NCBI RefSeq assembly: GCF_039679125.1
Contig: NZ_CP155551.1
Coordinates: 3,162,001 to 3,226,000, forward strand
DNA: 64,000 bases
Reading direction: 5' to 3'
Source of the DNA: Blastococcus sp. HT6-4
Lineage (GTDB): Bacteria > Actinomycetota > Actinomycetes > Mycobacteriales > Geodermatophilaceae
The notes below the pieces were generated by a model. It did no database searches, was not told the DNA's origin, and saw only the letters and a program-made list of their open reading frames with translations. This document shows positions 15,612-42,277 of the stretch, piece after piece. How positions within the stretch are numbered: position 1 is the stretch's first letter; every line of letters starts with the position of its first letter. The translations under genes were made by a program, and so were the position numbers.

Positions 15612-16219
15612 GCCGCACCCCGCTGCAGGCGCATGCCCAGGGCCTCGGCCACCTCGTCGGTGCCGGGCACGGTCCGTCCGGCCAGGTCTGCCAGCGTCCA
15701 CGCGACGCGGACCACCCGGTCGAAACCCCGGACCGAGAGCGAGCCGCGCTCCAGGGCCCGCTCGGCCAGCCGCAGCGACCCCCGCGGGACGGCGAACCGC
15801 TCGCGCAGCAGCCGACCGGGGACCTGGCTGTTCAGGCCGAGCCCGGTACCGGCCAGCCGCTCCCCCGCCGCCGCCCGTGCCCGGCGGACCCGCTCGGCGA
15901 CGACGGCCGTCGACTCCGGCTCACCGAGGCCGTCGAGCCAGGCGGCGCGGGTGACCGGCGGGAGGTCCACCCGGAGGTCGACGCGGTCGAGCAGCGGGCC
16001 GGAGAGCCGCGACTGGTAGCGCCGCCGCTCCAGCGGGCTGCAGGTGCAGGCCGTGTCGCCCGCGGCGCTCGCGCAGGGGCACGGGTTCGCCGCGAGGACC
16101 AGCTGCGCCCGGCAGGGGAAGGTGGCCGCCCCGGAGGCGCGCAGGATGGTGACCTGCCCGCGTTCGAGCGGCTGACGCAGCGTGTCGAGGACCGAACGCG
16201 GGAACTCCGGGGCCTCGTC
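15608..16219 (-). pseudogene. comM: comM (yifB) 3' fragment, interrupted by the island
   Basis: About 203 C-terminal codons of a Mg-chelatase-like AAA+ protein of roughly 500 residues. Preserved parts are APEFPRSVLDTLRQPLE, the arginine-finger segment LVLAANPCPCA, a four-Cys insertion (CPCASAAGDTACTC), SGPLLDRVDLRVDLPP and the C-terminal helical domain ending [10 protein letters not shown]. At 16219/16220 the frame leaves the family exactly at the Asp-Glu of the Walker B motif. Upstream codons derive from the island and the P-loop half is absent. ComM is a helicase aiding branch migration in transformation, so this allele should be inactive. Confidence 0.92.
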
Positions 16220-16239
16220 GTGAGATCGGTGAGTCCCCC
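16201..16239 (+). other. Left attachment-like site (comM junction, site 0)
   Basis: The left half (GGAACTCCGGGGCCTCGTC) is comM sequence coding DEAPEF on the minus strand; the right half (TGAGATCGGTGAGTCCCCC) belongs to the island. The same core, GAACTC-N-GCCTCGTCGTGAGA-N-GGTCCCC, recurs eight more times to the right in the same orientation. It is read as attL. Confidence 0.75.
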
Positions 16240-16379
16240 GGCTGTAGGCCGGGAGGCGGAGCTTCGCGTGGGCGGGGGTCTGGCCATTGCCGTGGTAGCG
16301 GGGAGGAGATGGTGGGCGTGTCGGCGCGGAAGTATTTACGGTGCCGAGGACGAGCGGGTCGGTCACAGGTGAGCGGGGG

Positions 16380-16721
16380 ATGGTCGTGGTGGAGAAGCGG
16401 CGGGTGGTCTCGGCGGTGCTGCCCAACGGGGTGCAGATCGGCGTGGAAGCGGTCGACGCCGGCGGGTCGCAGGACGTCTCCCGCGGCCGGGCCCTGGACC
16501 TCGGTGAGCTAGGGGCGGCGCTGGAGGGCATGGCGACCCTGGTCAAGGACGCGCTGGTGAAGGTGGCGCCGGACTCTGCGGAGGTGGAGTTCGGCATGGA
16601 CGTCAAGGTGGAGTCCGGCAAGCTGACCGCGCTGCTGGTCGGCGGGTCGGCCGGGGCCAGCCTGAAGATTACCCTCGGCTGGGGCGGGGACATCCGCGAC
16701 CAGAACCAGGACCGGGACTGA
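16380..16721 (+). CDS. Trypsin-co-occurring domain 1 (trypco1) protein
   Basis: 113 residues from ATG 16380 (MVVVEKRRVVSAVLPNG), which follows a G-rich ribosome site. The pattern fits the trypco1 domain: an N-terminal beta hairpin (VLPNGVQIGVEAVDAG), then LGELGAALEGMATLVKDALV, VEFGMDVKVESGKLTALLVG, and a final ASLKITLGWGGD. The family is known only from its linkage to trypsin-like proteases in conflict systems. The trypsin-STAND-TPR gene starts 31 bp downstream with its own GGAGG, so the two form an operon. Its role (possible protease regulator or substrate) is inference. Confidence 0.8.
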   Translation: MVVVEKRRVVSAVLPNGVQIGVEAVDAGGSQDVSRGRALDLGELGAALEGMATLVKDALVKVAPDSAEVEFGMDVKVESGKLTALLVGGSAGASLKITLGWGGDIRDQNQDRD

Positions 16722-16752
16722 AACAGAGACCGGCGCGCCCGCGGAGGCAACG

Positions 16753-19700
16753 GTGGCCCACAGGGATCTACCAAGCCTGGTGGCTGACTGTGCGGTGCGC
16801 ATCAACACCGCCGAGGACTTCGCCGGCTCCGGGGTCCTGGTCGCCCCCGGGCAGGTGCTGACCTGCGCCCATGTCCTCGCCGCGGCCGCGCAGGAAGGCG
16901 CCGCGATCAGCGTCGTCTACGGCGGCAGAACCTGGGCGGCCCAACTCAGGGCCATGCAGCCTGCCCCGCCGACTGGCGGGACCCTGCCGTCGCCCTACGG
17001 CTGGCCGGACCTGGCCTGGCTGGATGTGCCGGGCCTAACCGACCACCCCTGGGCCGAACTCGACACCGCCACCCCGGGGCGCGGGGAGGAGTTGGTCGGG
17101 TACGGATTCAGCGAGGCCTTCCAGGCCGGGGTGCCGGCCGGGCAGTGGGGCAGCTATCGGGTCGACGGCCCGGTCGACACCGGAGTCGGCCAGCGCTGGC
17201 AGCTCTCGGCCGCCCAGGCCGCCCCGGGCATGTCCGGCACCGGACTGATCAACCCCGCCACCGGCCGGCTCTTCGGCTTGCTCACCCGCACCCGTGACGC
17301 CGACACCGACGCCGGGGGCTGGGCCGTCCACGCCCACCCGGCACTCACCGCCCTGCCCGGCTTCAACGACCTGCTGGATCTTGCCCGTCCACACCCCTCT
17401 GCCTGGAAGGCACGGAGGCAGGCGTGGGAGGAAAACGCTGAAGATTGGCTGGCCGCCGCCGGGCTGCGCGACCTGCTCACCGCTCCTTACGAGCCGTTGC
17501 CCGACCGGCGCACTCCGGCCACCCTGCTGCTGCCCCGCCACGGCGTGGTGCCCTTCCACCCCGCCCGCCGGCCCGACCTCGACGACCTGCTCACCTGGTG
17601 CACCAACCCGGCCGCTCCGCAGGTGCGGCTGCTGACCGGCCCGGCCGGCACCGGCAAGACCCGACTGGCCGCCGAACTCGCACAGAGGGCCGCAGACGCC
17701 GGGTGGCTCACCGGATTTCTGGCGCCGAGCGATGACCCGGCGGCGGTCTGCGACCGCCTAGCCCGCCGCGCAGATTCCCTGCTCCTGGTCGTCGACTACG
17801 CCGAAACCCAGACCGACTTACCCGACCTGCTCGCCGCAGTCGCCGCCCTTGACGAGGACGTCGCGGGGGTGCGCGTGCTGCTGCTCGCCCGCGCCGCCGG
17901 GGACTGGTGGCGGGATTTACCCGCCAGCGGCGACGACCCCCACCGGACTGCCCAGGCATTGGTCGGAGCGCGCCCATTTGCTCTCAGCCAACTTGACGAG
18001 CTGGTTTCGGACCCCACCCCCGCTTACCAGGATGCTGCCGCGGCTCTTGCCAAGCGGCAGAACTTGACTTCCCCCGCCAAGCTGCCGCTTCTCGCTACCG
18101 CGGAGACATGGTCGTACCTGTCCGCGCACCTGGCCGCCCTCGACGCCGTGGGCACCCCCGACGAACCCGGCCGCCCCAATCCCGACGGTAGGCCCCGTTC
18201 CCCCGCCGACGTCCTGGACCACGTCCTCACCCGAGAACGCCGGCACTGGCGGCGCACCGCCACCATCGACCACCTCGCCCCCGTCGACGACACCATTCTG
18301 TCCCGCACCGTCGCCGCACTCACACTGCTGGGCGCCGGCACTGAGACCGATGCCTCCACCACGCTGGCCCGCGTACCCGACCTCGCAGGCGCCGAGGGAC
18401 ATAGGCGTGCGCTGGCCCGGTGGATGCGCCGCCACTACCCGCCTGATCGCAGCGACGACTGGCTCCGCGGACTGCAGCCGGACCTACTCGCGGAAAGCCA
18501 CATCACCACCGTGCTGGCCGCAGATCCGGATGTCGCGAGCAGCCTGTTGGGCGGGCTGCCCGAACCCCAAGCCCGCCGGGCGTTGACCGTGCTCACCCGC
18601 GCCGCCCGCTACCAACCGGCCGCCCACCAACTGCTGTGCACCGCGCTGCGCTCCGACCTGGCAAACCTCGGCCGGCCGGCGATCACCGTTGCCGGCGAGA
18701 CCGGCTCCCCGCTCGACCGAGTTCTCACCGACACCCTCGCCGAGCCGGACCTGGCCGTCGAGCCGGACCTGCTGATGCGCCTCGCCGCAGCGCTGCCCGA
18801 GCACACCATCGCGCTGCGTGAGGCCGCCATGGTGCTCACCGCCCGCAGGGTCCAGCACCTCCGCCGCAGTGGCCCGCAGGACGAACTCGCCGGATGGCTG
18901 AACAATCTGTCGATCCGGCTGGACCACGTCGGCCGCCGCGAGGACGCCCTGACCGCCATCGAGGAGGCCAGCGGCCTCTACCGGGCGCTGGCCGCCGCCC
19001 GGCCCGACGCCTTCACCCCCGCCCTCGCCACGGCGCTGAACAACCTGTCGAATCGGCTGGCCGGCCTGGGCCGGCGCGAGGACGCCCTGACCGCCGTCGA
19101 GGAGGCCGTGGCCCTGCACCGAGCGCTGGCCGCCGCCCGGCCCGACGCCTTCACCCCCGACCTGGCCATGTCGCTGAACAGTTTGTCGCTCTGGCTGGCC
19201 GGCCTGGGCCGACGCGAGGACGCCCTGGCCGCCGTCGAGGAGGCCAGCGGGCTCTACCGCACGCTGGCCGCCGACCGCCCCGACGCCTTCACCCCCGACC
19301 TGGCCACCTCGCTGACCAACGCGTCGAACCGGCTGGCCGACCTGGGCCGGCGCGAGGACGCCCTGGCCGCCATCGAGGAGGCCAGCGGCCTCTACCGCAC
19401 GCTGGCCGCCGACCGCCCCGATGCCTTCACCCCCCACCTGGCCACCTCGCTGAACAACGCGTCGCTCCGGCTGGCAGGCCTGGGCCGGCGCGAGGACGCC
19501 CTCACCGCCATCGAGGAGGCCAGCGGGCTCTACCGCACGTTGGCCGCCGACCGCCCCGACGCCTTCACCCCCGACCTGGCCATGTCGCTGAACAACCTGT
19601 CGAATCGGCTGGCAGGCCTGGGCCGGCGCGAGGACGCCCTCACCGCCATCGAGGAGGCCGTCGGCCTGCGCCGCACGCTGGCCGCCGCCCGGCCCAACGC

Positions 19701-21078
19701 CTTCACCCCCGACCTGGCCACCTCGCTGAACAATGCGTCGAATCGGCTGGCCGACCTGGGCCGGCGCGAGGACGCCCTCACCGCCATCGAGGAGGCTAGC
19801 GGGCTCTACCGCACACTGGCCGCCGCCCGCCCCGACGCCTTCACCCCAGACCTGGCCATGTCGCTGAACAACCTGTCGAACCAGCTCGGCAGCCTGGGCC
19901 GGCGCGAGGACGCCCTGGCCGCCATCGAGGAGGCCGTCACCCTGCGCCGCACGCTGGCCGCCCACCGCCCCGACGCCTACATCCCCGACCTCGCCATGTC
20001 GCTGAACAACCTGTCGATCCGGCTGGCAGGCCTGGGCCGGCGCGAGGACGCCCTGGCCGCCATCGAGGAGGCCGTCACCCTGCGCCGCACGCTGGCCGCC
20101 CACCGCCCCGACGCCTTCACCCCCGACCTGGCCATGTCGCTGAACAACGCGTCGAATCGGCTCGCCGGCCTGGGCCGGCGCGAGGACGCCCTGGCCGCCA
20201 TCGAGGAGGCTAGCGGGCTCTACCGCACGCTGGCCGCCGCCCGGCCCGACGCCTTCACCCCCGACCTGGCCATGTCGCTGAACAGCCTGTCGATCCGGCT
20301 GGCCGGCCTGGGCCGGCGCGAGGACGCTCTCACCGCCATCGAGGAGGCCGCCGGCCTCTACCGCGCGCTGGCCGCCGCCCGGCCCGACGCCTTCACCCCC
20401 GACCTCGCCATGTCGCTGAACAGCCTGTCCATCCGGCTGGGTGACCTGGGCCGGCGAGAGGACGCCCTGGCCGCCATCGAGGAGGCCGTCGGCCTCTACC
20501 GCGCGCTGGCCGCCGCCCGGCCCGACGCCTTCACCCCCGACCTGGCCATGTCGCTGAACAACGCGTCGACCGCACTGGGCGACCTGGGCCGGCCCCAGGA
20601 CGCCCTGGCCGCCATCGAGGAGGCCAGCGGCCTCTACCGCACGCTGGCCGCCGCCCGGCCCGACACCTTCACCCCCCACCTCGCCGGCTCGCTGAACAAC
20701 CTGTCGCTCTGGCTATTCGACCTGGGCCGGCCCGAGGACGCCCTGACCGCCATCGACGAGGCCACCGGCCTCTACCGCACGCTGGCCGCCACCCGGCCCG
20801 ACGCCTTCACCCCCGACCTCGCCACCTCGCTGAACAACCAGTCGAACCAGCTCGGCAGCCTCGGCCGCCGCGAGGACGCCCTCACCGCCATCGAGGAGGC
20901 CGCCGGCCTCTACCGGGCGCTGTACAACTGTCATCCCGATCTGTACCGCCACGCCCTCGTGAAGGCCCTCGCCAACCTGGCGACCGCCCAGCGGACGCTG
21001 GGCAGCGAAGCGGAGGCAGCGCACGTCGAGCGCGAGCGTGCAGCGCTGGAAGACGGAGCACCCAAGCGCGCCGAGTAG
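16753..21078 (+). CDS. Trypsin-like protease / STAND NTPase / TPR conflict protein (system A)
   Basis: 1441 residues from GTG 16753, six bases after GGAGG. Residues 1-200 form a trypsin-like domain with a plausible triad: His40 (LTCAHVL), an Asp in PDLAWLD (86 or 91), Ser161 (PGMSGTG). A STAND-type P-loop NTPase follows, with Walker A GPAGTGKT (296-303) and Walker B LLLVVDYAE. A helical region leads to 15 TPR units of 46 residues (LGRREDALTAIEEA...). In the biological-conflict model the TPRs sense an invader or partner, the NTPase oligomerises, and the protease fires. The stop is immediately followed by att-like site 1. Confidence 0.85.
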   Translation: MAHRDLPSLVADCAVRINTAEDFAGSGVLVAPGQVLTCAHVLAAAAQEGAAISVVYGGRTWAAQLRAMQPAPPTGGTLPSPYGWPDLAWLDVPGLTDHPWAELDTATPGRGEELVGYGFSEAFQAGVPAGQWGSYRVDGPVDTGVGQRWQLSAAQAAPGMSGTGLINPATGRLFGLLTRTRDADTDAGGWAVHAHPALTALPGFNDLLDLARPHPSAWKARRQAWEENAEDWLAAAGLRDLLTAPYEPLPDRRTPATLLLPRHGVVPFHPARRPDLDDLLTWCTNPAAPQVRLLTGPAGTGKTRLAAELAQRAADAGWLTGFLAPSDDPAAVCDRLARRADSLLLVVDYAETQTDLPDLLAAVAALDEDVAGVRVLLLARAAGDWWRDLPASGDDPHRTAQALVGARPFALSQLDELVSDPTPAYQDAAAALAKRQNLTSPAKLPLLATAETWSYLSAHLAALDAVGTPDEPGRPNPDGRPRSPADVLDHVLTRERRHWRRTATIDHLAPVDDTILSRTVAALTLLGAGTETDASTTLARVPDLAGAEGHRRALARWMRRHYPPDRSDDWLRGLQPDLLAESHITTVLAADPDVASSLLGGLPEPQARRALTVLTRAARYQPAAHQLLCTALRSDLANLGRPAITVAGETGSPLDRVLTDTLAEPDLAVEPDLLMRLAAALPEHTIALREAAMVLTARRVQHLRRSGPQDELAGWLNNLSIRLDHVGRREDALTAIEEASGLYRALAAARPDAFTPALATALNNLSNRLAGLGRREDALTAVEEAVALHRALAAARPDAFTPDLAMSLNSLSLWLAGLGRREDALAAVEEASGLYRTLAADRPDAFTPDLATSLTNASNRLADLGRREDALAAIEEASGLYRTLAADRPDAFTPHLATSLNNASLRLAGLGRREDALTAIEEASGLYRTLAADRPDAFTPDLAMSLNNLSNRLAGLGRREDALTAIEEAVGLRRTLAAARPNAFTPDLATSLNNASNRLADLGRREDALTAIEEASGLYRTLAAARPDAFTPDLAMSLNNLSNQLGSLGRREDALAAIEEAVTLRRTLAAHRPDAYIPDLAMSLNNLSIRLAGLGRREDALAAIEEAVTLRRTLAAHRPDAFTPDLAMSLNNASNRLAGLGRREDALAAIEEASGLYRTLAAARPDAFTPDLAMSLNSLSIRLAGLGRREDALTAIEEAAGLYRALAAARPDAFTPDLAMSLNSLSIRLGDLGRREDALAAIEEAVGLYRALAAARPDAFTPDLAMSLNNASTALGDLGRPQDALAAIEEASGLYRTLAAARPDTFTPHLAGSLNNLSLWLFDLGRPEDALTAIDEATGLYRTLAATRPDAFTPDLATSLNNQSNQLGSLGRREDALTAIEEAAGLYRALYNCHPDLYRHALVKALANLATAQRTLGSEAEAAHVERERAALEDGAPKRAE
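18914..20926 (+). repeat. 15 x 138-bp TPR-coding repeats of system A
   Basis: Fifteen nearly identical 138-bp units, each coding a 46-residue TPR unit. Differences cluster at a few codons (ASG/AVG/AVT after IEEA; RLAG/RLAD/QLGS), as expected for a surface under diversification on a homogenised scaffold. Confidence 0.95.
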
Positions 21079-21125
21079 GGGACCCACGGAACTCGTGCGC
21101 CTCGTCGTGAGAACGGTAGGTCCCC
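21079..21125 (+). other. Attachment-like site 1
   Basis: GGGACCCAC arm, the GGAACTCGTGCGCCTCGTC core and a GTAGGTCCCC arm. The arms pair with one mismatch. It begins directly after the stop of system A. Confidence 0.75.
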
Positions 21126-21195
21126 CACCGAGGCCGTGCGGTCGGCGCGCCGCTGAAGGTGTCCGGCCAGCGGTGGTTGTGCCAGGGTGCGGCGT

Positions 21196-21507
21196 ATGGG
21201 GGATGCGGATGGCCGGGTGCCGATCGCGGAGTTCGTGGCGGGGCTGCGGGCCGAGCTGAAGGAGGCTCAGGCGGCCCGGGATCCAGGGCTGCAGTTCGCG
21301 GTCGGGCCGGTGCAGGTGGAGTTCACCTTGGTCACCGGCCGCGAAGGCGGCCCGGAGGGCAAGGTGCGGTTCTGGGTCGTCGAGGCCGGCGGATCGGCCA
21401 AGTGGTCCAAGGCCGAGACGCAGACGGTGACCTTGACCCTGACCCCGGTCAACGAACGCGGCGAGGACGTGCGCGTCGGAGACTGGGTGCCCGGGCCACC
21501 CCCGTGA
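21196..21507 (+). CDS. Trypsin-co-occurring domain 2 (trypco2) protein, system B
   Basis: 103 residues from ATG 21196 (MGDADGRVPIAEFVAGLRAE); GTG 21187 is an alternative, but the ATG gives the same length as the two paralogues in this window. Trypco2 features: a short N-terminal helix with RAELKEAQAARDPGL, then FAVGPVQVEFTLVTGREGGP, GKVRFWVVEAGGSAKWS and ETQTVTLTLTPV. The protease-NTPase gene follows after 37 bp. The biochemical role is unknown; linkage implies a regulator or target of the protease. Confidence 0.85.
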   Translation: MGDADGRVPIAEFVAGLRAELKEAQAARDPGLQFAVGPVQVEFTLVTGREGGPEGKVRFWVVEAGGSAKWSKAETQTVTLTLTPVNERGEDVRVGDWVPGPPP

Positions 21508-21544
21508 CTGGTCGCCTTCCAGCAGCGGTAGCGGCCAGTAGGGG

Positions 21545-24481
21545 GTGGGCGTGGACGTCGGACGGGTGGTCGAGCTCTACGCGACCGGTGCGGGCGGCGA
21601 AGCTGGGCAGGTGGGGTCGGGCTATCGGCTGACCGAGCAGCTGGTGCTGACCGCCGCCCACGTGGTCGCTGACATCCGGATCATGACCCCGGGTGCGCCG
21701 GTGCCCGACGACGTCGACGCTCCCGGGATGTGCCGGGCCCGGCCGCTCGGATCGACGGACTGGGTGCCGGCCGCAGTGGTCTGGCGCAACACCGACGCCG
21801 ACGTGGCGGTGCTGCGCCTGGCCGCGTCTGCATCGCCGCCACCGGGCAGCCCCGCCCCGCGCTGGGGCCGCGTCGAGGGGACCGAGCCGATCGCGGTCGA
21901 CGCGGTCGGCTTCCCCTGGGCCCAGGAGGGCATCGACCGCAGACGGGACACCGAGCATCTGCATGGCTTCCTCACCCCGGGCACCGCCGTCAGAGCCGGT
22001 CAACTGGCCATCACAGTGCTCACCTCCCCGCCGTCCGCCCGGGATGGCGGCTCGCCGTGGGCAGGCATGTCCGGCGCCGCGCTGTTCGCCGGCCCGTTCC
22101 TGGTCGGGGTGGTGATCGTCGACCCGGCTCGGTTCGGCACCGACCGGGTGGTCGCCGCCCCGACGGCGCCACTGAAGGCCGACCCTGCGCTAACCGCGCT
22201 GCTCGGCCCTCCAGCTGTGGTCACGCGGGTCGGGCCGCGGTTGCGGCTGGCCATCACCGCCGACACCTCCGTGGCCGTGACACCGCCGTACCGGGCGGCC
22301 TCGGCCCGGCTGGGCCGGGAACCGTCCCGGCTGCTGCTCCCCGAGCACGGCATCGTGCCCTTCCTCGGCCGCGGCACCGAGCTTCAGACGCTCCAGGCTT
22401 GGTGCCTGAACGGCGGCGGGGCGGCGCTTCGGCTTCTGCTCGGCGCCGGTGGAGCGGGCAAGACCCGGCTCGCCGCCGAGGCGTGTGTACGGCTGGCCGG
22501 GCACGGCTGGCAGGCCGGCTTCGCCGACGCCGACGCCCCCGGCGGAAATCCGGTGCTGGCCTTTGACCGGCCCACCCTGCTCGCCGTTGATGACGCCGAC
22601 CTGTACGTCGACCTGCTCACCGGACTGGTGCGCGCGCTGGGCTACTGGCCGCCCGACGCCCCCCCGGTGCGGCTGCTGCTGCTCACCCGCCACACCACCG
22701 GCTGGTGGCACACGCTGAATCAGCGCACCGACCACCTCGCCGCCGAACTGGGCGACCTCCCGCTGACCCTGCACACCGGCGACCTGGTCTCGGCTAACCG
22801 GCCTGCCCATCACGCCGCGGCCCGCGCCGCTTTCACCCACCACCTGCGGCCGGCCACCAGGCCTGCAGCCCCGGACAGCGACCAGGTCCCCGATCTCGCC
22901 GACGACGCCTTCGCCAACCCACTGCTGGTGCACATGCACGCGCTGCTCGCCGCCCATGGCGTGGCCGTGCCCACCGGCGGCAGCGCCGTGCGCGAACGGC
23001 TCCTGGACGCAGTCCTCGACCGGGAACGCCGCCGCTGGGCCGACACCTTCCCCGCCACGGTGACCACCAGCAGCCCCACCACCCACCAACGAGCCGTCGC
23101 CACGGCCACCCTGTTCGCTCCCGCCGACCAATCCGCCAGCGCCGCGCTGCTCGCGATTATCGACGACTTCGCCGACGCCACCGCGGCCGCGCGCGGCGCC
23201 GTCGCCGACTGGCTACACCAGCGCTATCCCGGCGCCCAGCCGCCCTGGATCGCCCCGCTGCGCCCTGACCTGCTCACCGAACAACTGCTGGCCAGCTGCC
23301 CCGACCTGACCGGCCTAGTACTCACCGGCCATGCCCGGCTCACCGATCACCACGGGTCTCCTGCGGGCACCCAGGTCGAGCAACTACTCGTCGAGCTCGT
23401 CCGCGCTGCCGGCCGCGACCCGGTCCGCCAGGCGCTGGAGCGGCTGCTCGCCGCCCGGCTGCCCGACCTGCTCGACGCGGCACTCGCCGCCCCCGCCGGC
23501 CCGCTGCCTGATTTGCTCGACACCGCGCTCACGCTCTGCCCGCAGCGATCGGCTGCCGTGGCCTTGCTCGACCGGCTGCCCGAGCACAGCACCGGTCTGG
23601 CTGCGCTCGCCGCCACCCTCACCGCCCAGGCCGTGGACCACCACCGCATCGTCACCGCCGACAACCCCGAGACGCACACACCCCGGCTCGCCGGCGCGCT
23701 GAACAACCTGTCGGTCCGGCTGACCGACCTCGGCCGCCGCGAGGACGCCCTGACCGCCGTCGAGGAGGCCACCGGCCTCTACCGGGCGCTGGCCGACGCC
23801 CGCCCCGACGCCTTCACCCCCCACCTCGCCACGGCGCTGAACAACCTGTCGGTCCAGCTGGCCGACCTCGGCCGCCGCGAGGACGCCCTCACCGCGATCG
23901 AGGAGGCCACCGGCCTCTACCGCGCGCTGGCCGACGCCCGCCCCGACGCCTTCACCCCCCACCTCGCCACGGCGCTGAACAACCTGTCGAACCAGCTGGC
24001 CCACCTCGGCCGCCGCGAGGACGCCCTCACCGCCGCCCACGAGGCCGTCACCCTGCGCCGCGCCCTGGCCGACGCCCGCCCCGACGCCTTCACCCCCCAC
24101 CTCGCCACGGCGCTGAACAACCTGTCGATCCAGCTGGCCGGCCTCGGCCGCCACGAGGACGCCCTCACCGCCGTCCAGGAGGCCACCGGCCTCTACCGCG
24201 CGCTGGCCGACGCCCACCCCGACGCCTTCACCCCACACCTCGCCGGTAGCCTGCAGTCCTATGGTGTGGTCCTCACCGATCTGGGCCACCACGAGGACGC
24301 GCTCGCCCTCGACCAGGAAGCGGTCAATCTGCTGCGAGCTCTGTGCCAGCGTCATCCGGACTTGTACCGCGAGGCCCTCGCGAAGGCCCTACGGAACGTT
24401 GCGATCGATCTGCGGAACCTGGACCGAGGGCAGGAAGCGGCGCAGGCCGACGACGAGGCCGCGAAGCTGGCAGACAACTGA
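21545..24481 (+). CDS. Trypsin-like protease / STAND NTPase / TPR conflict protein (system B)
   Basis: 978 residues (GTG 21545; GTG 21551 also fits). The trypsin-like domain has His39 (LTAAHVV), Asp in DADVAVLRL (about 84-86) and Ser176 (AGMSGAALF). The NTPase has a Walker A GAGGAGKT and Walker B LLAVDDADL, with a TGWW-containing sensor region (LLLTRHTTGWW). It ends with only five TPR units, the last two diverged, and a capping helix. It is paralogous to systems C and D across the whole protease and NTPase part. Short TPR content is the main difference. Confidence 0.85.
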   Translation: MGVDVGRVVELYATGAGGEAGQVGSGYRLTEQLVLTAAHVVADIRIMTPGAPVPDDVDAPGMCRARPLGSTDWVPAAVVWRNTDADVAVLRLAASASPPPGSPAPRWGRVEGTEPIAVDAVGFPWAQEGIDRRRDTEHLHGFLTPGTAVRAGQLAITVLTSPPSARDGGSPWAGMSGAALFAGPFLVGVVIVDPARFGTDRVVAAPTAPLKADPALTALLGPPAVVTRVGPRLRLAITADTSVAVTPPYRAASARLGREPSRLLLPEHGIVPFLGRGTELQTLQAWCLNGGGAALRLLLGAGGAGKTRLAAEACVRLAGHGWQAGFADADAPGGNPVLAFDRPTLLAVDDADLYVDLLTGLVRALGYWPPDAPPVRLLLLTRHTTGWWHTLNQRTDHLAAELGDLPLTLHTGDLVSANRPAHHAAARAAFTHHLRPATRPAAPDSDQVPDLADDAFANPLLVHMHALLAAHGVAVPTGGSAVRERLLDAVLDRERRRWADTFPATVTTSSPTTHQRAVATATLFAPADQSASAALLAIIDDFADATAAARGAVADWLHQRYPGAQPPWIAPLRPDLLTEQLLASCPDLTGLVLTGHARLTDHHGSPAGTQVEQLLVELVRAAGRDPVRQALERLLAARLPDLLDAALAAPAGPLPDLLDTALTLCPQRSAAVALLDRLPEHSTGLAALAATLTAQAVDHHRIVTADNPETHTPRLAGALNNLSVRLTDLGRREDALTAVEEATGLYRALADARPDAFTPHLATALNNLSVQLADLGRREDALTAIEEATGLYRALADARPDAFTPHLATALNNLSNQLAHLGRREDALTAAHEAVTLRRALADARPDAFTPHLATALNNLSIQLAGLGRHEDALTAVQEATGLYRALADAHPDAFTPHLAGSLQSYGVVLTDLGHHEDALALDQEAVNLLRALCQRHPDLYREALAKALRNVAIDLRNLDRGQEAAQADDEAAKLADN

Positions 24482-25360: not shown

Positions 25361-25431
25361 CCACGCGAGCTGTATGGCGGGCGCGCCGCTCTGGGTTTCC
25401 GGCGGGTGCCGGTTGTGCCAGGGTGCGGCGC

Positions 25432-34836: not shown

Positions 34837-35021
34837 CAGGACAAGGCCGGGCCGTAGCGACCGCACTGTCGGGTCGGCGTCTCATGGTTCCGCGAGGCTG
34901 GAGTGGCGCGCCGGACCGCGCGGCGTACCTCCCTTATGCGGGAGGGTCGGGTCTCCTACTGTGGGCGGACGCTCGGACCCCCTGCGAGGCCGCGCGTGAG
35001 CCTGGCCTGGGGGAGGTCGTG

Positions 35022-38000
35022 ATGGCGAGGTTGGTGCTTGAGCCGGTCGAGGTTGACGGCGCCGGTCGGTGGCGGTGGCTGTTGCGTACCGAGGACGGTG
35101 AGCCGCTGGCCTCCCATCAGGTTGTTGTGCCGGAGGGCGACTACGAGTACGGCGGATTCGTCGATCTGTACCGGTGGCTGCGGTGGGAGGCCGACCCGGA
35201 CCGGCGAGTCGTTTCGGAGGCGGAGCTGACCGCCCGGGTGGGCGCGTGGATGGGTGAGCATCTGCTGGGGCCGGAGGTGATGGCGGCGCTGCTGGACGAG
35301 GCGCCGGTGACCGTCCGCGTGCTGGTGCCCGAGCCGCTGGGTTTCTTGCCCTACCGGCCGTGGGAGATCGCCGCCTGGCAGCAGGCGATGCTGGGTCGGG
35401 AGCAGGTGGGGTTCGTCTTCGACCTGCCCGACACCCGCCGGCCCCCCCGCACCGCCCTGAACGACAAAGATGCGCGACCTGTGCGGGTGCTGGCGTTGTT
35501 CAGCCTGCCCACCGGCGGCACGCCGTTGGGCCTGCGTCGGGAACGCCACGCCCTGCAGGAACTCGTGCGCCAGCTCGGGCAGGGGCAGTCGGCGCGGGCG
35601 GTGCAGCTGCGGGTGCTGCAGTACGGCGTCACCCGCGACGCGCTGACCGCCGCCGTGGACGACGCCGACGGCTGGGACGTGCTGCACGTCTCCGGGCACG
35701 GCGGCGCCGGGGTGCTGGTCCTCGAACGGGAGGACGGCTCGTCCGACCCGCTCGAGTCCGGTGAACTGGTCGAGCTGCTGTATCCAATGCGCCGCCGGCT
35801 GCGGCTGGCGGTGCTCTCGGCGTGTGAGTCCGGCGCGGCCACCGCCGCGGAGATGCTGCGCCTGCTCAACCAGACCCGGCCGGCCGAGCAGCTGGCGCAG
35901 CAGGCCGATCAGGAAGCCAGCGGCGATGCTGCCGATGCGGGCTGGCCCGGACTGGGCCGGGCCCTGGTCCAGCGGCTGGGCTGTGCGGTGCTGGCGATGC
36001 GCTATCCGGTGATCGACGACTTCGCCATAACCCTCACCGGACACTTCTACCGTGGGCTGTTCCAGCACGAGCAGAGCGTGGACGTGGCGCTGGCCCGGGC
36101 GCTGCCCCGCGCCGCACCTGGCCTTCCCTCGCTGGGGGCCCCCGCGGTGTCGCTGGCCACCCCGGCGCTGCTCGGCCCGGCCACCGGCCTGACGCTGCAG
36201 CCCCCGCCCGGCAGTGCGGAGCAGATCAGCCTGGTCATGGCGGGCTTTCCGGACGAGCCGGAGCGGTTCGTCGGCCGCACCGCCATCCTCACCCAGGCCC
36301 GGCACGCCTTGCTGGCCGGCTCCGGTCGGGCGGGGGTGCTGCTGCACGGTATGGCCGGCGCCGGCAAGACCACCGCCGCCCTGGAACTGGCCTATCAGAC
36401 TGCCGCCACCTTCACCGCCGCTGCCTGGTGGAGCGCGAAGGACACGCAGTGGCAGGCAGCGCTGGCCGACCTCGCCGGAGAGCTGGAGAGGCAGCTGAAC
36501 CCGGCGCTCAACCCCGATGGGCTGCCGAACGTGCCACACGTCCAGCTGGTGGGCAACACCGCCACCGACACCCGGCTGGATGCCTACCTGCCGCGGCTGA
36601 CCGAGCTGATCAAGCAGGCCCGGCTGCTGATCGTGCTGGACAACCTGGAGACCCTGCTCACCGCCCAGGGCAGCTGGCTCGACCCGCGCTTCGGCCGGCT
36701 CGTGACCGCGCTGACCGGGCATCGCGGCGCGTCCCGGGTGGTGCTGACCAGCCGCACCATCCCCGCCGACCTCGACCGCGACCGCGTCATCGAGCGTCCC
36801 GTTCACGCGCTGGCCCGCGACGAGTCGCTGCTGCTGGCCCGCGAACTGCCCCACCTGCACGCCCTGGCCCACGACACCGAACCGGCCACCCGCACCACCG
36901 ACCCGCAGGTGGCCGCCGACCGCGCCCTGCTGGCCCGCACCCTCACCGTCGTCCAAGGCCACCCCAAGCTGCTCGAGCTCGCCGACGCCACCGCCGCCAA
37001 CCCCGGGCTGCTCAAGGAACGGGTGACCGCCGCCGAAGCCGCCGCCGCCGACCGCGGCACCCCGCTGGCCGCCTTCCTCGACACCGGCCACAGCCAGGCC
37101 GACCCCGACCAGCTACTCGACGCCCTGGAAAGCTGGACCCGCAACACCACCGCCGCACTGCCCGAGGCCGCCCGACTGCTGCTGCAACTGCTCGCGGGGG
37201 CCGAGCCCGCCGACCGCACCAGCGCCGTCCTCGACGGCAACTGGGCCGACCTGTGGCGACGGCTGAACCGCCCCGGCGACCCACCCCCCATCCCGGACAC
37301 CCTCGCCCCGCTGACCACCGCCGCCCTCATCGACCCCCAGCCGATTGGTGGGTCCGACGAACGCGACCGGCCGGTGCGCTACCACCTGCACCCCGGCGTC
37401 GCCGACACCATCCGCGCCGACACCCCCGCCGAGACCAGAACCGCCATCGACACCGAACTCGCCGCCTACTGGGGGGCGGCGTTCCGCTTTGCACTTGAGC
37501 AGGAGCCACACCAGGCGACCGGAGGGCTCGTTGTGCACGCCGCGCTCGCCGCCGCCCCCTATTTGCTCCGCCTCCACGACTGGGCAACCGCCAGCGAGCT
37601 TCTCGAATCGGCCCTGCACCGCGATGAAACCCTCGGCGCGGTCGCCGCCGCCCTGCCCCATCTTCAGACCGTCGCCGACGCCACCACCGGCACCGACCGT
37701 GAACTCATCGACCGCGGCGTCCTCGCCACTGCCGTCGCCTACTTCGACCCCCTCGAGGGCGAACGACGGATACGCGCCAACCTCGCGGAGGCCGACGACC
37801 GCGGTGAGTACAGGGTGGCATACGCGGCTGCCGGCGACCTGATCAACCTTCTGGCAGCTCGGGGACGTCTGTCCGAGGCTCTCGCGATCACCGACCAGAA
37901 GGCGGACCTGACCCACCGCGCCGGGCTCGGCCCGTGGACCCAACTGGCCGACGACGCTGGACGCCTACAGCTCCTTGTCGTGACCGGCGACGCCCAGACG

Positions 38001-39398
38001 ACCTTCGACGAAGTGCAACGACTCCGTGAGCGCATGCGCGACCTGCCCGACCAGCCTGGCGACAATGAAGCCGTCAACCCGTGGAACGTCCGCGAGACGA
38101 TCCTCGACACCGGGCGTATGGCAGCCTTGGCGTTGGGCCGCTGGCAGGACGCGCTCGACCTCAACGCCGAAATCCTCGACAGCCAACGGCGACGCGGCGC
38201 CGGCCCGCACGGCCTTGCCCGTACCCGGTTTAGCGACTATGGGCCGCTGCTGCGCCTCGACCGGCTGGCCCAGGCCGACCAGCTGCTGCGCGCCTGCCAG
38301 AACCAGTACGAACAGGCCGGGGACACCGCTAGGGTCGGCATGGTTTTGGGTGCCCGCGCCGACCTCGCCGACCGGCAGGGACACCGCGAGGCGGCCCAGG
38401 GCCACACACAGGTCGCCCTGCGCTACCTCTATGTCTCCGGGCGCCCCCGGGAAATCGCGACCGGTCACCATAACCTGGCCATCGGGCAGCAGCGGGCCGC
38501 CCACACGCCCGCAATGTGGCTGCCCCACCTGCTCGCCGCCGCCCTGCTGCGCCACCTCATCGGCGACAGACGCCTGCCCGAGACCCTGCGCATCCTCACC
38601 CGGAAGCTCACCGACCCGGCCACCGCGGCGGTTCTTTCCGCCACCATCGCGCAGGTCCAGAACACCGTCGAACAGGTCGACGGCGTCCACTTCGGCACCC
38701 TCCTTGGCGCCCTAGAGCCAGACCCCGGGCGCCAGCAGGCCGCCCTCGACGAGATCCTCTACACCGCCCGCACCATGCCCTCCGACCAAGCATTCGACGT
38801 CCAGAAGCACCTCGACCGCTGGGAGCCGCGGCTGGCCGCGATCGTGGCGGCCGCCGGCGGCGACCAGGCCGCCCGCGACCAGGTCGAGCAACTACTCGAT
38901 CGACTGGCCGACACCGAGGACTGGGCCGCGCTGACCGGGGCACTGCGCCGCATCCTGGCCGGCGAGCGCGACCCCGAGACGCTGTTGGCCGGCCTGGACG
39001 CGGTCGACACCGCTATCACCACCCGGCTGCTCGACGCTCTAGCCGGCCGCATCCAACTCATTACCAGCTCCCAGCCCGCGCCCAGCACCGAGGAACTCAT
39101 CTCCCGGTGGAAGCCGGTGCTCGCCGGCATCGTCGCCGCCACCAGCGGCGACCAGGCCGCCCGCGACCAGGTGGAGCAACTGCTCGACCAGCTGGCCGAC
39201 ACCGAGGCCTGGGCGGCGCTGACCGGGGTGCTGCGCCGCATCCTGGCCGGTGAACGCAACCCCGAGGCGCTGTTGGTCGGCCTGGACCCGACCGACACCG
39301 CCATCACCACCCGGCTGCTCGACGCCCTCGCCGGCCGTATCCGGCTGCAGCCCCCGTCCGACATCTCCGAGGAAGCGGCCGAACACGATGACCAGTGA
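35022..39398 (+). CDS. CHAT protease / STAND NTPase / helical-repeat conflict protein (system E)
   Basis: 1458 residues from ATG 35022, ten bases after GGGGGAGG; an in-frame ATG at 34818 is rejected because it lies inside site 5. Residues 90-330 form a CHAT caspase-like domain with the dyad His226 (HVSGHGG) and Cys268 (LSACESG). The STAND NTPase has Walker A GMAGAGKT (443-450) and Walker B LLIVLDNLE near 540, followed by a winged-helix and a long TPR-like region. The C-terminus holds a tandem duplication of about 96 residues (AARDQVEQLLD to ALAGRI). By family, ligand sensing would activate proteolysis and cell suicide or defence. Confidence 0.88.
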   Translation: MARLVLEPVEVDGAGRWRWLLRTEDGEPLASHQVVVPEGDYEYGGFVDLYRWLRWEADPDRRVVSEAELTARVGAWMGEHLLGPEVMAALLDEAPVTVRVLVPEPLGFLPYRPWEIAAWQQAMLGREQVGFVFDLPDTRRPPRTALNDKDARPVRVLALFSLPTGGTPLGLRRERHALQELVRQLGQGQSARAVQLRVLQYGVTRDALTAAVDDADGWDVLHVSGHGGAGVLVLEREDGSSDPLESGELVELLYPMRRRLRLAVLSACESGAATAAEMLRLLNQTRPAEQLAQQADQEASGDAADAGWPGLGRALVQRLGCAVLAMRYPVIDDFAITLTGHFYRGLFQHEQSVDVALARALPRAAPGLPSLGAPAVSLATPALLGPATGLTLQPPPGSAEQISLVMAGFPDEPERFVGRTAILTQARHALLAGSGRAGVLLHGMAGAGKTTAALELAYQTAATFTAAAWWSAKDTQWQAALADLAGELERQLNPALNPDGLPNVPHVQLVGNTATDTRLDAYLPRLTELIKQARLLIVLDNLETLLTAQGSWLDPRFGRLVTALTGHRGASRVVLTSRTIPADLDRDRVIERPVHALARDESLLLARELPHLHALAHDTEPATRTTDPQVAADRALLARTLTVVQGHPKLLELADATAANPGLLKERVTAAEAAAADRGTPLAAFLDTGHSQADPDQLLDALESWTRNTTAALPEAARLLLQLLAGAEPADRTSAVLDGNWADLWRRLNRPGDPPPIPDTLAPLTTAALIDPQPIGGSDERDRPVRYHLHPGVADTIRADTPAETRTAIDTELAAYWGAAFRFALEQEPHQATGGLVVHAALAAAPYLLRLHDWATASELLESALHRDETLGAVAAALPHLQTVADATTGTDRELIDRGVLATAVAYFDPLEGERRIRANLAEADDRGEYRVAYAAAGDLINLLAARGRLSEALAITDQKADLTHRAGLGPWTQLADDAGRLQLLVVTGDAQTTFDEVQRLRERMRDLPDQPGDNEAVNPWNVRETILDTGRMAALALGRWQDALDLNAEILDSQRRRGAGPHGLARTRFSDYGPLLRLDRLAQADQLLRACQNQYEQAGDTARVGMVLGARADLADRQGHREAAQGHTQVALRYLYVSGRPREIATGHHNLAIGQQRAAHTPAMWLPHLLAAALLRHLIGDRRLPETLRILTRKLTDPATAAVLSATIAQVQNTVEQVDGVHFGTLLGALEPDPGRQQAALDEILYTARTMPSDQAFDVQKHLDRWEPRLAAIVAAAGGDQAARDQVEQLLDRLADTEDWAALTGALRRILAGERDPETLLAGLDAVDTAITTRLLDALAGRIQLITSSQPAPSTEELISRWKPVLAGIVAATSGDQAARDQVEQLLDQLADTEAWAALTGVLRRILAGERNPEALLVGLDPTDTAITTRLLDALAGRIRLQPPSDISEEAAEHDDQ

Positions 39399-39933
39399 CC
39401 CCCAGACATCCGTGCAGTCCATTCCCGATGAGCAGGTCATCCCGGTGCTGGCCCTGGTGCTCGACGCCCGCCGCAGGCTGCCCGACGCCGCCACCGCCAA
39501 GCAGACCTGCGAACGCCTCTCCGCCGCCGCCGCCGACCCGGCGCCCCTGGAGATCGTCGACGAGCAGACCGGCCCCGCCGACGCCAGTCCCAGCGACCTG
39601 AACACCGGCTCGACCGCCCCGTCGGACACCGCACTGGCGCGCACCGCCCTGGGCTATCTGGTCACCACCGACCCCGAAGCCGCCCGGGTCCTGCCCCGCG
39701 CCCTCCGCCTGGCCAACGAACCCGACACCGGCACCACCCGCTTCGACCCGATGACCCTGCTCATCGGCGGCCTGGTCCTCGCCGTCCTGCAGACCGAGGT
39801 CGACTGGACCCGCACCGACACCGGCCGCTGGAAACTCCGCGTCCACAAACGGGCCATGCGCGACAGCACCATCGCCACCCTCATCCGCGGCGTCCTCACC
39901 GGAAACGGCCCCGGCACCGGCGCCCCGCAGTAG
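39388..39933 (+). CDS. Small partner of the CHAT-STAND protein, unknown
   Basis: 181 residues. The ATG lies 11 bp inside the end of the CHAT gene (ATGACCAGTGA), indicating translational coupling and a joint function. It is acidic in the first half (EIVDEQTGPADASPSD), with LGYLVTTDPEAARVLPRALR, a hydrophobic helix MTLLIGGLVLAVLQTEV, and a basic end KLRVHKRAMRDSTIATLIRG. It may be the small associated component known from CHAT-containing tripartite systems, but I cannot assign the family with confidence. Confidence 0.75.
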   Translation: MTSDPQTSVQSIPDEQVIPVLALVLDARRRLPDAATAKQTCERLSAAAADPAPLEIVDEQTGPADASPSDLNTGSTAPSDTALARTALGYLVTTDPEAARVLPRALRLANEPDTGTTRFDPMTLLIGGLVLAVLQTEVDWTRTDTGRWKLRVHKRAMRDSTIATLIRGVLTGNGPGTGAPQ

Positions 39934-39962: not shown

Positions 39963-40009
39963 GGGACCTACGGAACTCGCGCGCCTCGTCGTGAGAACCG
40001 TAGGTCCCC
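39963..40009 (+). other. Attachment-like site 6 (perfect 11-bp arms)
   Basis: GGGACCTACGG, a 25-base middle holding AACTCGCGCGCCTCGTCGTG, then CCGTAGGTCCC: the cleanest inverted repeat of the series. It lies 29 bp after the CHAT partner gene. Confidence 0.82.
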
Positions 40010-40130
40010 GCTCCTGACGGCGCGTCGGGCGGCACGTCTTGAAGTGCGTGCCGGACAGGGTTTCCCTGGGCGGGCGCGGATGCCACCTTGTCCAGAATGA
40101 GCGTCCCGCACGACCGTTGGAGGTCCCACG

Positions 40131-40815
40131 GTGGCCACCGCATCCTCTGCGACGGGCGCAGTGCCAGGGGGGGCAGGCTCCGGCCGGGTCCGGACAGAGC
40201 CGACAGTTCTGGAGCGGTCTGGTCACAGGGCTCGTGACTGGCGTACTCAGCACCGTGCTGGGCTCTCTTCTGTTGCTGGTGCTCGCACCACGCGTAGAAG
40301 AAGCACTGCGCGAACCGACCTGCGATGACCCGCGGGGCCTGGAACTGGTTCGCCCGCTCGAGGTCACGAGCACTCATCCAGAACTCGCGCCCCAGGGTCA
40401 GCAATCATACGAACTCGCGCGAATGCTCGATGGCGACTCGGGGACCGCATGGGTTGAGGGCGTCCTGGACGAGGACAATCCATACGGCCGAGGGGTGTCA
40501 TTGGAGTTCCGGTTTCCCGATGAAACAGACCTGCGCCTCGCCTGCGTAGTGAACGGCTACGGACGTTCATGGGAGACCTACCAGGAGAATGCCCGACTGC
40601 GCCTGTTGGATGTCGAGACTCAACAGGGTGACAGCGAGGAAGTCGGGCTCCCAGAAAAGACGCCCGATACCTTCGCCGTTCACCAGGAGCTGGCGGTACC
40701 CGAGGGGACGACCACCTTCCTTCGTCTGACGATCGTGGAGGCACGCGCCGGCCAAGGAGCCGATCGGGCGACCGATCTGGCAGTCAGCGAAATCGAGTTC
40801 TGGGAGACCGATTAG
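40131..40815 (+). CDS. Membrane-anchored protein with NADase-type glycan-binding-like domain (possible G-tract frameshift)
   Basis: The main frame, open from 40039, codes a transmembrane helix (FWSGLVTGLVTGVLSTVLGS) and a beta-rich C-terminal domain with MLDGDSGTAWVEGV, FRFPDETDLRLACVVNGYG, ENARLRLLDVET and FLRLTIVEA. This is the pattern of the discoidin-like NADase-type glycan-binding domain. The best start, GTG 40131 seven bases after GGAGG, is in a different frame and joins the main frame only if the G7 run near 40168 loses one G. Without that, translation would have to begin at 40039 or inside. It is the only gene between sites 6 and 7. Confidence 0.65.
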
Positions 40816-40869
40816 CGAGCTGTCGCGCCTGGTCCCGTAGCAGCACGCTCGCGTCCTGTCCGGTCATCG

Positions 40870-40908
40870 GCGAACTCATGCGCCACGTGGGGAGAACGCT
40901 AGGTCCCC
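40870..40908 (+). other. Attachment-like site 7 (left arm absent)
   Basis: GCGAACTCATGCGCCACGTG, GGGAGAACGCTAGGTCCCC. The right half and part of the core are kept, but the GGGACC arm is missing and the core is more diverged than elsewhere. Confidence 0.6.
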
Positions 40909-40942
40909 TGAATCAGACGGCTAACCGGGCGGCCGGGCGACC

Positions 40943-41839
40943 TCATGACGGTACGACGTCGACCTCGCACTGGCCCATCAAGCTTGCATCTGGCGCGCGC
41001 AGTTGTGCGTTGAGGTGGACTCCCAAGATCTCCTCGCCTCGAGTCAGACCGAGGTAGTCACCCGTCCTCTGCCCTAGCTCGACCGTTCCTGTGCCGCCCA
41101 AAGGAACGTCGAGATCGTGGTTTGCCCACATGGCCATCTGCGGGAAGTCGGGAACGATGGAGTTGCTGGCCTTGGCCCAGCCGTTGACGGTGACCTCCAC
41201 TGGGTGAGCAGTACCGTTGACGACCGTCACGCGCGGCCGGTACTGCTCGATGCCGTAGTCGGTCTCCGAGACCATCTGATAGGTCACCTGCACCGACGTG
41301 AAGTCGGCGCAGGTCGGCCTCGCCACACTGGGCGACGCCGATGTCGGGATCTCGGCGCGTGCCGGGGTCGGCTCGGCCGGGGCCACCATGACCGAGTTGC
41401 CGCTACTTGCTTCACCGCCCGATGTAGCAAGGGCTTCCTCGGCCGATTCGTTGATGGCCAGGCGCCACAGGGCAATGACGGCTAGGGCCGCCAACGAGAC
41501 CGCGAGCAGAACCCGCCGCCGTGGAGGGATTGGTGGCTCTGCAGTCGGCATCGGCGGAGGAGATGGTGGTGGCGAAGTCCGCGGGGCTCTCGCGTGCTCA
41601 GCGGGCGGTGGTGGTTCGGAGGCGGCCCGGCCTCTTTCTCCTGCCGAAGCCGATCTTGTGCGGCGGGATGGGTCCCGCAGCTCCTCGTACGCCTCCCGGA
41701 CCAGGTCGAACACGGCCGCGGAGCCGCCCGCGTCGGGGTGGAGCTGCCGGGCGAGCTTGCGGTAAGCGCTCCGGATTTCGTCGGGCGTCGCCGATTCTGC
41801 GACACCGAGGATCTCGTGAGGGGTGCGGTCAGCGCGCAT
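40943..41839 (-). CDS. J-domain membrane protein
   Basis: 298 residues from the ATG at 41839 (MRADRTPHEILGVAESAT); an ATG at 41851 adds four residues. Residues 5-65 form a DnaJ domain with the HPD motif (LARQLHPDAGG) that stimulates Hsp70. A proline-rich linker and one transmembrane helix (RVLLAVSLAALAVIALW) follow. The C-terminal domain, probably extracytoplasmic, starts at CADFTSVQVTYQMVSETDYG and looks like an Ig-like or FxLYD-type beta sandwich (VEVTVNGWAKASNS, GTGTVELGQRTGDY). It is the sole gene between sites 7 and 8. A role in the island is unknown. Confidence 0.78.
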   Translation of the reverse strand: MRADRTPHEILGVAESATPDEIRSAYRKLARQLHPDAGGSAAVFDLVREAYEELRDPSRRTRSASAGERGRAASEPPPPAEHARAPRTSPPPSPPPMPTAEPPIPPRRRVLLAVSLAALAVIALWRLAINESAEEALATSGGEASSGNSVMVAPAEPTPARAEIPTSASPSVARPTCADFTSVQVTYQMVSETDYGIEQYRPRVTVVNGTAHPVEVTVNGWAKASNSIVPDFPQMAMWANHDLDVPLGGTGTVELGQRTGDYLGLTRGEEILGVHLNAQLRAPDASLMGQCEVDVVPS

Positions 41840-42237
41840 GCCGATCTCCATCCAGCGACGCCCTGAGCCTGCGCCGTGTCTCATTCGTGCAGCGGCTGCC
41901 TTCTCGGCTGAAGAGCTGGCACAGACTGAGCGGCGCGCTAGGCGACGGCCCCCCGTACGCGAACGTCATCGGGACCTCCATGTGCGTTGCTGCAATGTTC
42001 CTGCGAGAGCAGTCGGCAGGTTGAGGCTGCAGCTGAAGGCGATCGGCTGTTCTGCTCGAAACAGGCCCTGCCCGAGGGCCTTCGACGTCGGCGAGGCAGT
42101 GGCCGAGACGGGCCGGCCGGAAGGCCCGTCCGCCACGCTTCCACGAGCCCTCCCCCAGCGCCCCAGTGGCTGTCGATTCGGCGGGCCCTGACCCGCTCGC
42201 TCCTGCATCGACTGGTTTCCGCCGAGAGCCGTGTGCT

Positions 42238-42277
42238 GGCGAACTCACGGGCCTCGTCGTGGGAACGATAGGTCCCC
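42238..42277 (+). other. Attachment-like site 8 (left arm absent)
   Basis: GGCGAACTCACGGGCCTCGT, CGTGGGAACGATAGGTCCCC. The left half resembles the comM side of site 0 (GAACTCCGGGGCCTCGTC) more than the hairpin-type sites do. It is the rightmost copy found in the window. Confidence 0.68.

Follow-up and report, generated by a model that had tools for sequence, protein, structure and literature searches.

The comM gene (Mg_chelatase family) of Blastococcus sp. HT6-4 is present in two pieces 82.3 kb apart, and the island between them begins, next to the C-terminal half, with an array of eight small cassettes bounded by nine direct copies of a short site. The window analyzed here, a stretch of 64,000 nucleotides (contig NZ_CP155551.1, positions 3,162,001 to 3,226,000), holds this half of comM, the whole array and part of a 56-kb terminal element; positions beyond it are given as extended coordinates. 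By their anatomy, the nine sites are large-serine-integrase hybrids of the attL type and not attP sites, attC sites or terminators. We consider it probable that site-specific recombination at these attL-like sites exchanges non-autonomous cassettes, and that a single element carrying an integrase lies at the far end. A previous reading of the window from its letters (the sequence-only reading) had proposed att-like, half comM-derived sites in a serine recombinase context that bound cassette-like modules, and this was upheld: the sites are tied to a family of large serine integrases, and the modules differ at the site boundary between species.

Hybrid sites in an interrupted comM gene

The C-terminal half of comM and the nine 46-letter sites are located as follows.

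15611..16219, - strand: comM C-terminal half, beginning with DEAPEFP and adjoining site 1 (Pfam PF01078/PF13335, frame and boundary)
16192..16237, + strand: site 1 (attL proper), where a P half meets the B' half belonging to comM itself
21079..21124, + strand: site 2, P-B' hybrid with both outer arms
24515..24560, + strand: site 3, with the paired arm change GGGACTTG/CAAGTCCC
25314..25359, + strand: site 4
30396..30441, + strand: site 5
34790..34835, + strand: site 6
39963..40008, + strand: site 7
40862..40907, + strand: site 8, left outer arm not clear
42231..42276, + strand: site 9, where the B' half from cassette 8 meets the P half of the terminal 56-kb element

The N-terminal half of comM lies outside the window, at extended coordinates 98554-99471 (from genome position 3260548), and carries the single B-P' junction (attR) that forms the island's far end. 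In the sense of comM, the near junction reads ...GGGGGACTCACCGATCTCAC-GACGAGGC-CCCGGAGTTC... and the far junction ...TTCATG-GACGAGGC-ATGAGAACGGTAGGTCCCCC. The GACGAG at the junction codes for the Asp-Glu of the DEAPEF stretch, which we take to be the Walker B region. As is characteristic of serine-integrase sites, the host gene is interrupted at a single point and both ends are hybrid P/B junctions, and the attP deduced from the arm of site 9 and that of the far junction has near-perfect inverted arms around GACGAGGC as a short common core; a P-P' type site also occurs in another genome (G031, see below). By deduction from this symmetry, the exchange would be centered on the dinucleotide GA/TC, and the half-sites were named on the same basis.

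A scan of the window for the repeated core with up to three mismatches returned nine matches, all on the + strand, where 0.33 are expected, and none of 100 shuffles reached nine. The nine direct copies in one orientation that the sequence-only reading had counted were thus recovered, with six of its starts exact and three (16201, 40870 and 42238) falling on inner positions of sites 1, 8 and 9. Neighboring sites are 0.8-5.2 kb apart. Across the genome (4.30 Mb; up to two mismatches in 16 nt) eight of the 12 matches were array sites, site 8 being over the mismatch limit, and the remaining four were scattered with two mismatches each, the reversed control pattern giving three matches. A weight matrix built from eight sites, which had zero matches in 435,871 shuffled bases, found no extra P-B' site from 42.3 kb to the island's far end.

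All nine sites (9/9) share the same anatomy, with a P arm on the right (+ strand), a GACGAGGC-type core and a B'-like half on the left. The B' motif GAGTTC, read outward, corresponds to the Glu-Phe codons of comM in the same register, and is exact in 18 of the 22 sites compared, from eight sources. It is because of this combination, a P arm on the right and a GAGTTC half matching comM codons on the left, that the sites are classed as attL-type P-B' hybrids. The similarity of the core to the interrupted comM, noticed earlier, is real for GAACTC..GCCTCGTC but is confined to it, the remainder of the site being integrase arm. The 46-letter junction looks like the scar of a serine-integrase insertion into comM.

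The outer arms GGGACCTAC/GTAGGTCCC had been assigned to sites 1-6 and are in fact carried by sites 2-7, and the paired complementary change to GGGACTTG/CAAGTCCC exists but belongs to the third of the nine sites (24515), not to the second. In several sites the outer GGGACCTAC on the left is the inverse of the P arm, yet it lies 2 bases further out than a true P', and the left arm is slight or absent in sites 1, 8 and 9, where 2, 3 and 4 of 9 positions pair. Left and right outer arms pair on average at 6.0 of 9 positions in 20 of the 22 sites (the cassette sites, the two comM junctions being dropped) versus 2.59 for random 9-mers from the flanks; a site's own arms pair only slightly better than permuted ones (5.70, p = 0.023).

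Sites with inverted arms might instead be intergenic terminators or regulatory hairpins, an explanation that we find scarcely credible. Three of the nine, sites 5, 6 and 7, fold stably (z -5.7, -2.8 and -5.3), and two sites directly abut stop codons. However, the other six fold no further than z -2, sites are also found 5' of first genes and beside reverse-strand genes, and they are not widespread. A terminator scan of positions 24000-43000, which covers sites 3-9 and leaves sites 1 and 2 outside, gave three matches, none of them at a site, where 3.5 are expected. An intrinsic terminator (GC hairpin plus T tract) was accordingly rejected on the scan and the folding, and a simple cis-element is disfavored because the same sites bound unrelated genes on either strand. 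The folding and covariation idea of the sequence-only reading proved weak: the pair-count covariation score of 0.174 was marginal (12 of 500 shuffles as high), as were the 75.0% of cells paired (31 of 500), and only the three sites named fell below z -2. An attC-like fold was rejected on these grounds as a general feature of the sites. With few sites folding and covariation marginal, the inverted arms resemble half-sites bound by protein more closely than they do a folded attC.

Cassettes and their exchange between genomes

The idea that every interval holds one gene or one complete system holds loosely, with the exceptions that the 24.5-25.3 and 40.9-42.2 kb intervals contain one reverse-strand gene each, and that a gene in the 30.4-34.8 kb interval is frameshifted. 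The cassettes are as follows.

16341..21078, + strand: cassette 1, Trypco1 gene and trypsin-STAND-TPR gene, whose stop codon abuts site 2
21187..24481, + strand: cassette 2, Trypco2 gene (21187-21507) and trypsin-STAND-TPR gene (21545-24481)
24645..25193, - strand: cassette 3, a 182-amino acid protein without Pfam or PADLOC match
25423..30395, + strand: cassette 4, Trypco2 and trypsin-STAND-TPR genes, stop codon abutting site 5
30455..34769, + strand: cassette 5, Trypco2 and trypsin-STAND-TPR genes, frameshifted near 33.84 kb
34995..39933, + strand: cassette 6, CHAT-type AAA/STAND-TPR gene (start codon uncertain; AAA_16 and SAVED_CHAT matches, and CHAT in two homologues) and a gene for a 227-amino acid protein
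40039..40815, + strand: cassette 7, protein with a NADase_transloc F5/8-type domain
40943..41884, - strand: cassette 8, DnaJ-domain protein

The STAND label denotes nSTAND_NTPase5 matches below the model's curated cut-off. In the TPR gene of cassette 5 the frame changes at about 33836, between near-identical repeat units, which may reflect decay, phase variation or an assembly error. The distance from gene stop to site is 0, 33, 0, 29 and 46 nt in five intervals and about 20 nt in a sixth.

The 200-base flanks on each side of 23 sites were compared in 253 pairs, with homology defined as a score of at least 50 and one-sided homology by a score below 45 on the other side; shuffled flanks reached a maximum of 32 in 300 trials. 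Homology was detected in 41 pairs: it was one-sided in 40 of them (36 under stricter criteria) and two-sided in the remaining pair, sites 2 and 5. Three more pairs, all involving the degenerate site of G055, scored 46-47 on one side and were left unclassified. Site 1 shares comM and the site with the first site of the Geodermatophilus genome G056 and differs in the first cassette, whereas site 7 and a site of a second Geodermatophilus genome (G049) have the end of the CHAT cassette (cassette 6) and the site in common and differ in the next cassette. Between G056 and G090, which belong to different genera, only the left flank is shared.

If exchange takes place at the site center, half-sites should travel with their own flank. 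In permutation tests on 22 of the 23 sites (the P-P' type site of G031 was excluded), the 32 pairs related by the right flank had similar right halves (p = 0.003) and not left halves (p = 0.22), and the eight pairs related by the left flank had similar left halves (p = 0.03) and not right halves (p = 0.14). Each half thus goes with the flank beside it, which places the switch within the site. These data, supportive rather than conclusive because all the pairs belong to four groups on the left and two on the right, suggest that modules are exchanged at the site junctions among related genomes.

The sites do not occur widely in unrelated loci, the outcome that the sequence-only reading depended on. 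A 22-base pattern with up to three mismatches matched in 11 of 112 genomes of the family, own genome counted, and its reversed control in none. Two of the 11 (G041 and G051) have the arm only, G053 has a B-P'-like junction and G031 a P-P' type site, and the others have P-B' sites, that of G055 being degenerate; G041, G051 and G053 were excluded from P-B' site counts. One exact pattern retrieved seven stretches on three contigs from the genome_contigs collection (own genome excluded), in a search that was not exhaustive, as G031 and G047 were not returned despite their matching sites, and zero matches to one exact site pattern were found in viral contigs. One of the contigs, of 7.5 kb and titled as a Subtercola metagenome-assembled genome, bears a Trypco2-trypsin cassette that is homologous to cassettes 2, 4 and 5 from a point no more than 6 bases from the site.

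Multi-site arrays were found in both Geodermatophilus genomes. That of G056 (three sites) begins at comM, where the core was to be sought in related genomes, in the order comM, site, CHAT-STAND-TPR, site, CHAT-STAND-TPR, site and further copies; the N-terminal half of its comM was not found, and its only Resolvase matches are on another contig. In G049, five sites are distributed among seven CHAT-STAND-TPR copies away from comM, which is intact on another contig. The comM genes of G043 and G056 are both split at the same codons as here, the arms of G043 being different. A second, partial N-terminal piece of comM is seen beside an intact comM in G060 (G060:C119:4848-5165, L083) and G047 (G047:C1:776895-777218, L082), the piece of G060 breaking at the same GACGAG codons. 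As regards other cargo, the P-P' type site of G031 (L050 near 9664-9709; G031:C1:2056664), where comM is intact and the Resolvase domain has no match, stands at the 5' end of a run of genes matching Wadjet JetA2, JetB2 and JetC2 (type II), in which JetC is spread over two open reading frames and JetD was not identified. The degenerate site of G055 lies between restriction-type genes and a Trypco2-trypsin cassette, and in G090 a TPR/STAND-like module is flanked by two direct sites, one good and the other degenerate.

Part of this picture could come from homologous recombination and tandem duplication of the STAND-TPR genes, with the site carried along as a conserved 5' element. Cassettes 2, 4 and 5 are paralogues (67-69% at the protein level) with TPR tracts up to 95% identical in 300-nt comparisons, and sites 2 and 5 have both flanks in common. 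Moreover, among 13 CHAT copies in three genomes, eight have a site just upstream, one a degenerate site and four, in tandem, none. On the other hand, sites also bound unrelated cargo, namely the 182-amino acid, F5/8-domain and DnaJ genes of this array, Wadjet II in G031 and restriction-type genes in G055, and the half-sites follow their own flank and switch inside the site, so we hold this process to be decidedly unlikely as the explanation of the array.

Candidate integrase and possible routes to the array

The 42-98 kb part of the island contains a third gene with a resolvase domain besides two large serine recombinases.

59111..61300, - strand: int1, large serine integrase (Resolvase, Zn_ribbon_recom; weak Recombinase match)
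62880..64000, on to extended 65060 (L015:4881-7061), - strand: int2, second large serine recombinase, with C-terminal C2H2 fingers

Resolvase and Recombinase profile searches of the source genome gave matches only beyond 58 kb, with none recognized inside the array. Since the Resolvase domain of int1 begins at residue 187, its true start codon is probably downstream of 61300. The C-terminal end of int2 matches C2H2 zinc fingers (PF00096, 1.4e-11), an unusual addition to a large serine recombinase. Relatives of int1 were detected in three of 393 other genomes drawn from the class (G175, G245 and G435; E<=1e-60) and in one of 111 other genomes of the family (G032; E<=1e-40). Three of these four near-full relatives are inside comM at the same Asp-Glu codons with the integrase adjoining the junction, beginning beside the N-terminal half in G032 and G245 and beside the C-terminal half in G175, whereas comM is intact in G435. 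A 77-residue C-terminal fragment of int1 (64% identical) in G053 lies away from comM, beside an arm with the same GGTAGGTCCCC and adjoining the B-P'-like junction around G053:C24:279740 (L054). In G245, a 228-kb island inside comM (G245:C1:5616843-5845308) has an int1-family integrase and a single attL without an array; insertion into comM thus does not generally lead to arrays. A phage or plasmid origin of int1 was rejected, as no match was found at E 1e-20 among 50,697 phage and 72,556 plasmid records. We infer that int1, or a close relative, is the acting enzyme; int2 is also in the island.

The 56-kb element includes, near attR, helicase, methylase and ATPase genes matching HmaA, HmaB and HmaC (extended 84042-92970; L016:8042-16970), and at 56182-57948 a GmrSD C-terminal domain with an Excalibur domain.

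Taken together, the locus is probably a composite site-specific island in comM, where a comM-targeting integrase of the int1 family would cut at the GA/TC of GACGAGGC. One conventional element (42.3-98.5 kb, with int1) has normal ends, its P on the C-terminal side of comM and its P' (attR) on the N-terminal side, and the eight non-autonomous cassettes, each composed of P half, cargo and B'-like half, are placed between the P end of that element and the B' half of comM, thereby making every array junction an attL-type P-B' hybrid in direct orientation. Cassettes would be gained, lost and reordered by recombination at the hybrid centers with the integrase acting in trans, an integron-like movement in which the site would be that of a serine integrase and double-stranded. 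One expects circles of the form P-cargo-B' as the units, because an attP circle entering attL would leave P-P' in the array, which is not seen. For this reason ordinary attP insertion at a regenerated attL, the model of the sequence-only reading, was judged only partly right, all nine sites being P-B'. The exact center, the formation of circles and the way in which P-B' sites recombine, whether with each other or as a P-B' circle with a site containing B, are points that we infer; possible routes would be relaxed exchange between attL sites, or a dual-mode site that takes the role of attP towards the attB of comM.

The dual-mode route, a specific sub-model of the cassette exchange proposed here, would have the outer P-type arm GTAGGTCCC of the B' side allow a cassette circle to act as attP against the attB of comM; the inner GAGTTC half would then become the new B', attB would be rebuilt beside the N-terminal half, and a normal attP element would later cap the array. 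It accounts for array sites that are all P-B' in one orientation with one B-P' end, and the pairing of the outer arms in the 20 cassette sites also speaks for it. Nevertheless, we can offer it only tentatively, since the outer arm is displaced outward by 2 bp relative to the true P' arm and is missing from sites 8 and 9 and from several in other genomes, no regenerated B'-B junction was found, and a search of G056 did not find the N-terminal half of comM.

Accretion of decayed ordinary elements would make the modules integrase-less remnants and the sites leftover attL. Tandem accretion and cis-mobilizable elements (CIMEs) have been described for other elements (PMC5704250), as have tandem composite islands of the staphylococcal cassette chromosome (SCC) (PMC6243372), and the 56-kb terminal element is itself such an element. 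We regard this origin as unlikely, because repeated attP insertion would also leave B-P' or P-P' junctions where the array has only P-B', the modules are tight (0-46 nt from gene stop to site in six intervals), and the Resolvase/Recombinase matches of this genome all lie beyond 58 kb.

Several observations weigh against exchange at attL-like sites. Serine integrases recombine attP with attB, and attL with attR in the presence of a directionality factor, other pairings being reported there not to recombine, and the alignment of attL with attL is described as preferentially antiparallel, i.e. unproductive (PMC3783163); under these published pairing rules, P-B' × P-B' exchange needs an unusual enzyme or partner. 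Unlike its relatives, int1 adjoins neither end of the island, and no relative of it at E<=1e-40 was found in the other site-bearing genomes of the family, the G053 fragment being below the cut. The array of G049 and the sites of G031, G047, G055, G060 and G090 are away from comM, which is intact there, and sites 8 and 9 are the most divergent of the nine. Plain tandem duplication also acts, as four of the 13 CHAT copies are consecutive with no site and one more has a degenerate site. Finally, no more than four left-flank and two right-flank groups account for all the related pairs, the permutation p-values are modest, and with one genome per species all comparisons are between species.

Relation to known systems and meaning

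Integron cassette arrays and integrase-less attC clusters are likewise built of many small one-site modules in the same orientation; the attC of integrons has a conserved hairpin recognized single-stranded by the tyrosine integrase IntI, which also uses attI. The array shares with them the many small modules with one site each and one orientation, and the occurrence of arrays without a nearby integrase in other genomes, and differs in its serine recombinase context, in modules with their own upstream regions and whole gene pairs, and in the lack of a conserved attC-like fold (three of nine sites below z -2). A serine-integrase counterpart of the integron, in which one half of each double-stranded hybrid site would serve as P' in the circle and B' in the chromosome, insertion of each defence cassette would rebuild the target, and arrays would grow and reshuffle indefinitely with integrase supplied in trans from comM elements, is a possibility that we put forward with low confidence.

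With the attL of known serine integrases (LI, phiC31, Bxb1 type) the sites have in common the P-B' hybrid, the common core, the inverted P arms, the attR partner and an element-borne serine integrase, but here there are nine direct attL-type sites with cargo between them, pairs on which known integrases are reported as unproductive (PMC3783163). SCC composite islands, moved by Ccr, also combine a serine recombinase, one target gene and tandem elements between direct-repeat sites; SCC, however, inserts at the 3' end of orfX and leaves the gene intact (PMC6243372), whereas the present insertion lies inside comM and splits it, with 0.8-5.2 kb spacing, no recombinase gene recognized in the array and sites that are hybrids of comM half and arm. 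Accretion of CIMEs and integrative and mobilizable elements resembles the array in its non-autonomous tandem modules at one attB, possibly moved by a neighbor's integrase, but a CIME is defined as a module with attL and attR flanks and no integrase (PMC5704250), and the modules here are without paired attL and attR, only attL-type sites being present in the array and a single attR at the island end.

As for the cargo, conflict systems are described in which Trypco1/2 partner trypsin-like peptidases (PMC7159879), and here too they stand beside trypsin-like peptidase proteins; the passages concerned describe no site-bounded arrays, and 'integrase' has zero occurrences in the main text of that account. 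PADLOC gave no strong match for cassettes 1, 3, 4, 7 and 8, so a defence role for these would rest on the Trypco/trypsin literature. In 112 genomes, searched at E<=1e-50 without every candidate being scored, all matches to the two main cargo families were in site-bearing loci (trypsin type in 2/112, CHAT type in 3/112). No description of such an array was found in the open-access literature, which is weak evidence of novelty with preprints and most subscription journals outside that search.

If the reading is true, the enzyme and its site pair would be useful for stacking large DNA pieces successively at one place. It makes a question of mechanism testable: by what means can an array be assembled and rearranged from attL-type sites in direct orientation, given that well-studied serine integrases leave such sites unrecombined in parallel? 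For the bacteria themselves, it would represent a second, independent way to stockpile immunity genes in the form of exchangeable cassettes, each unit being an entire STAND-type system.

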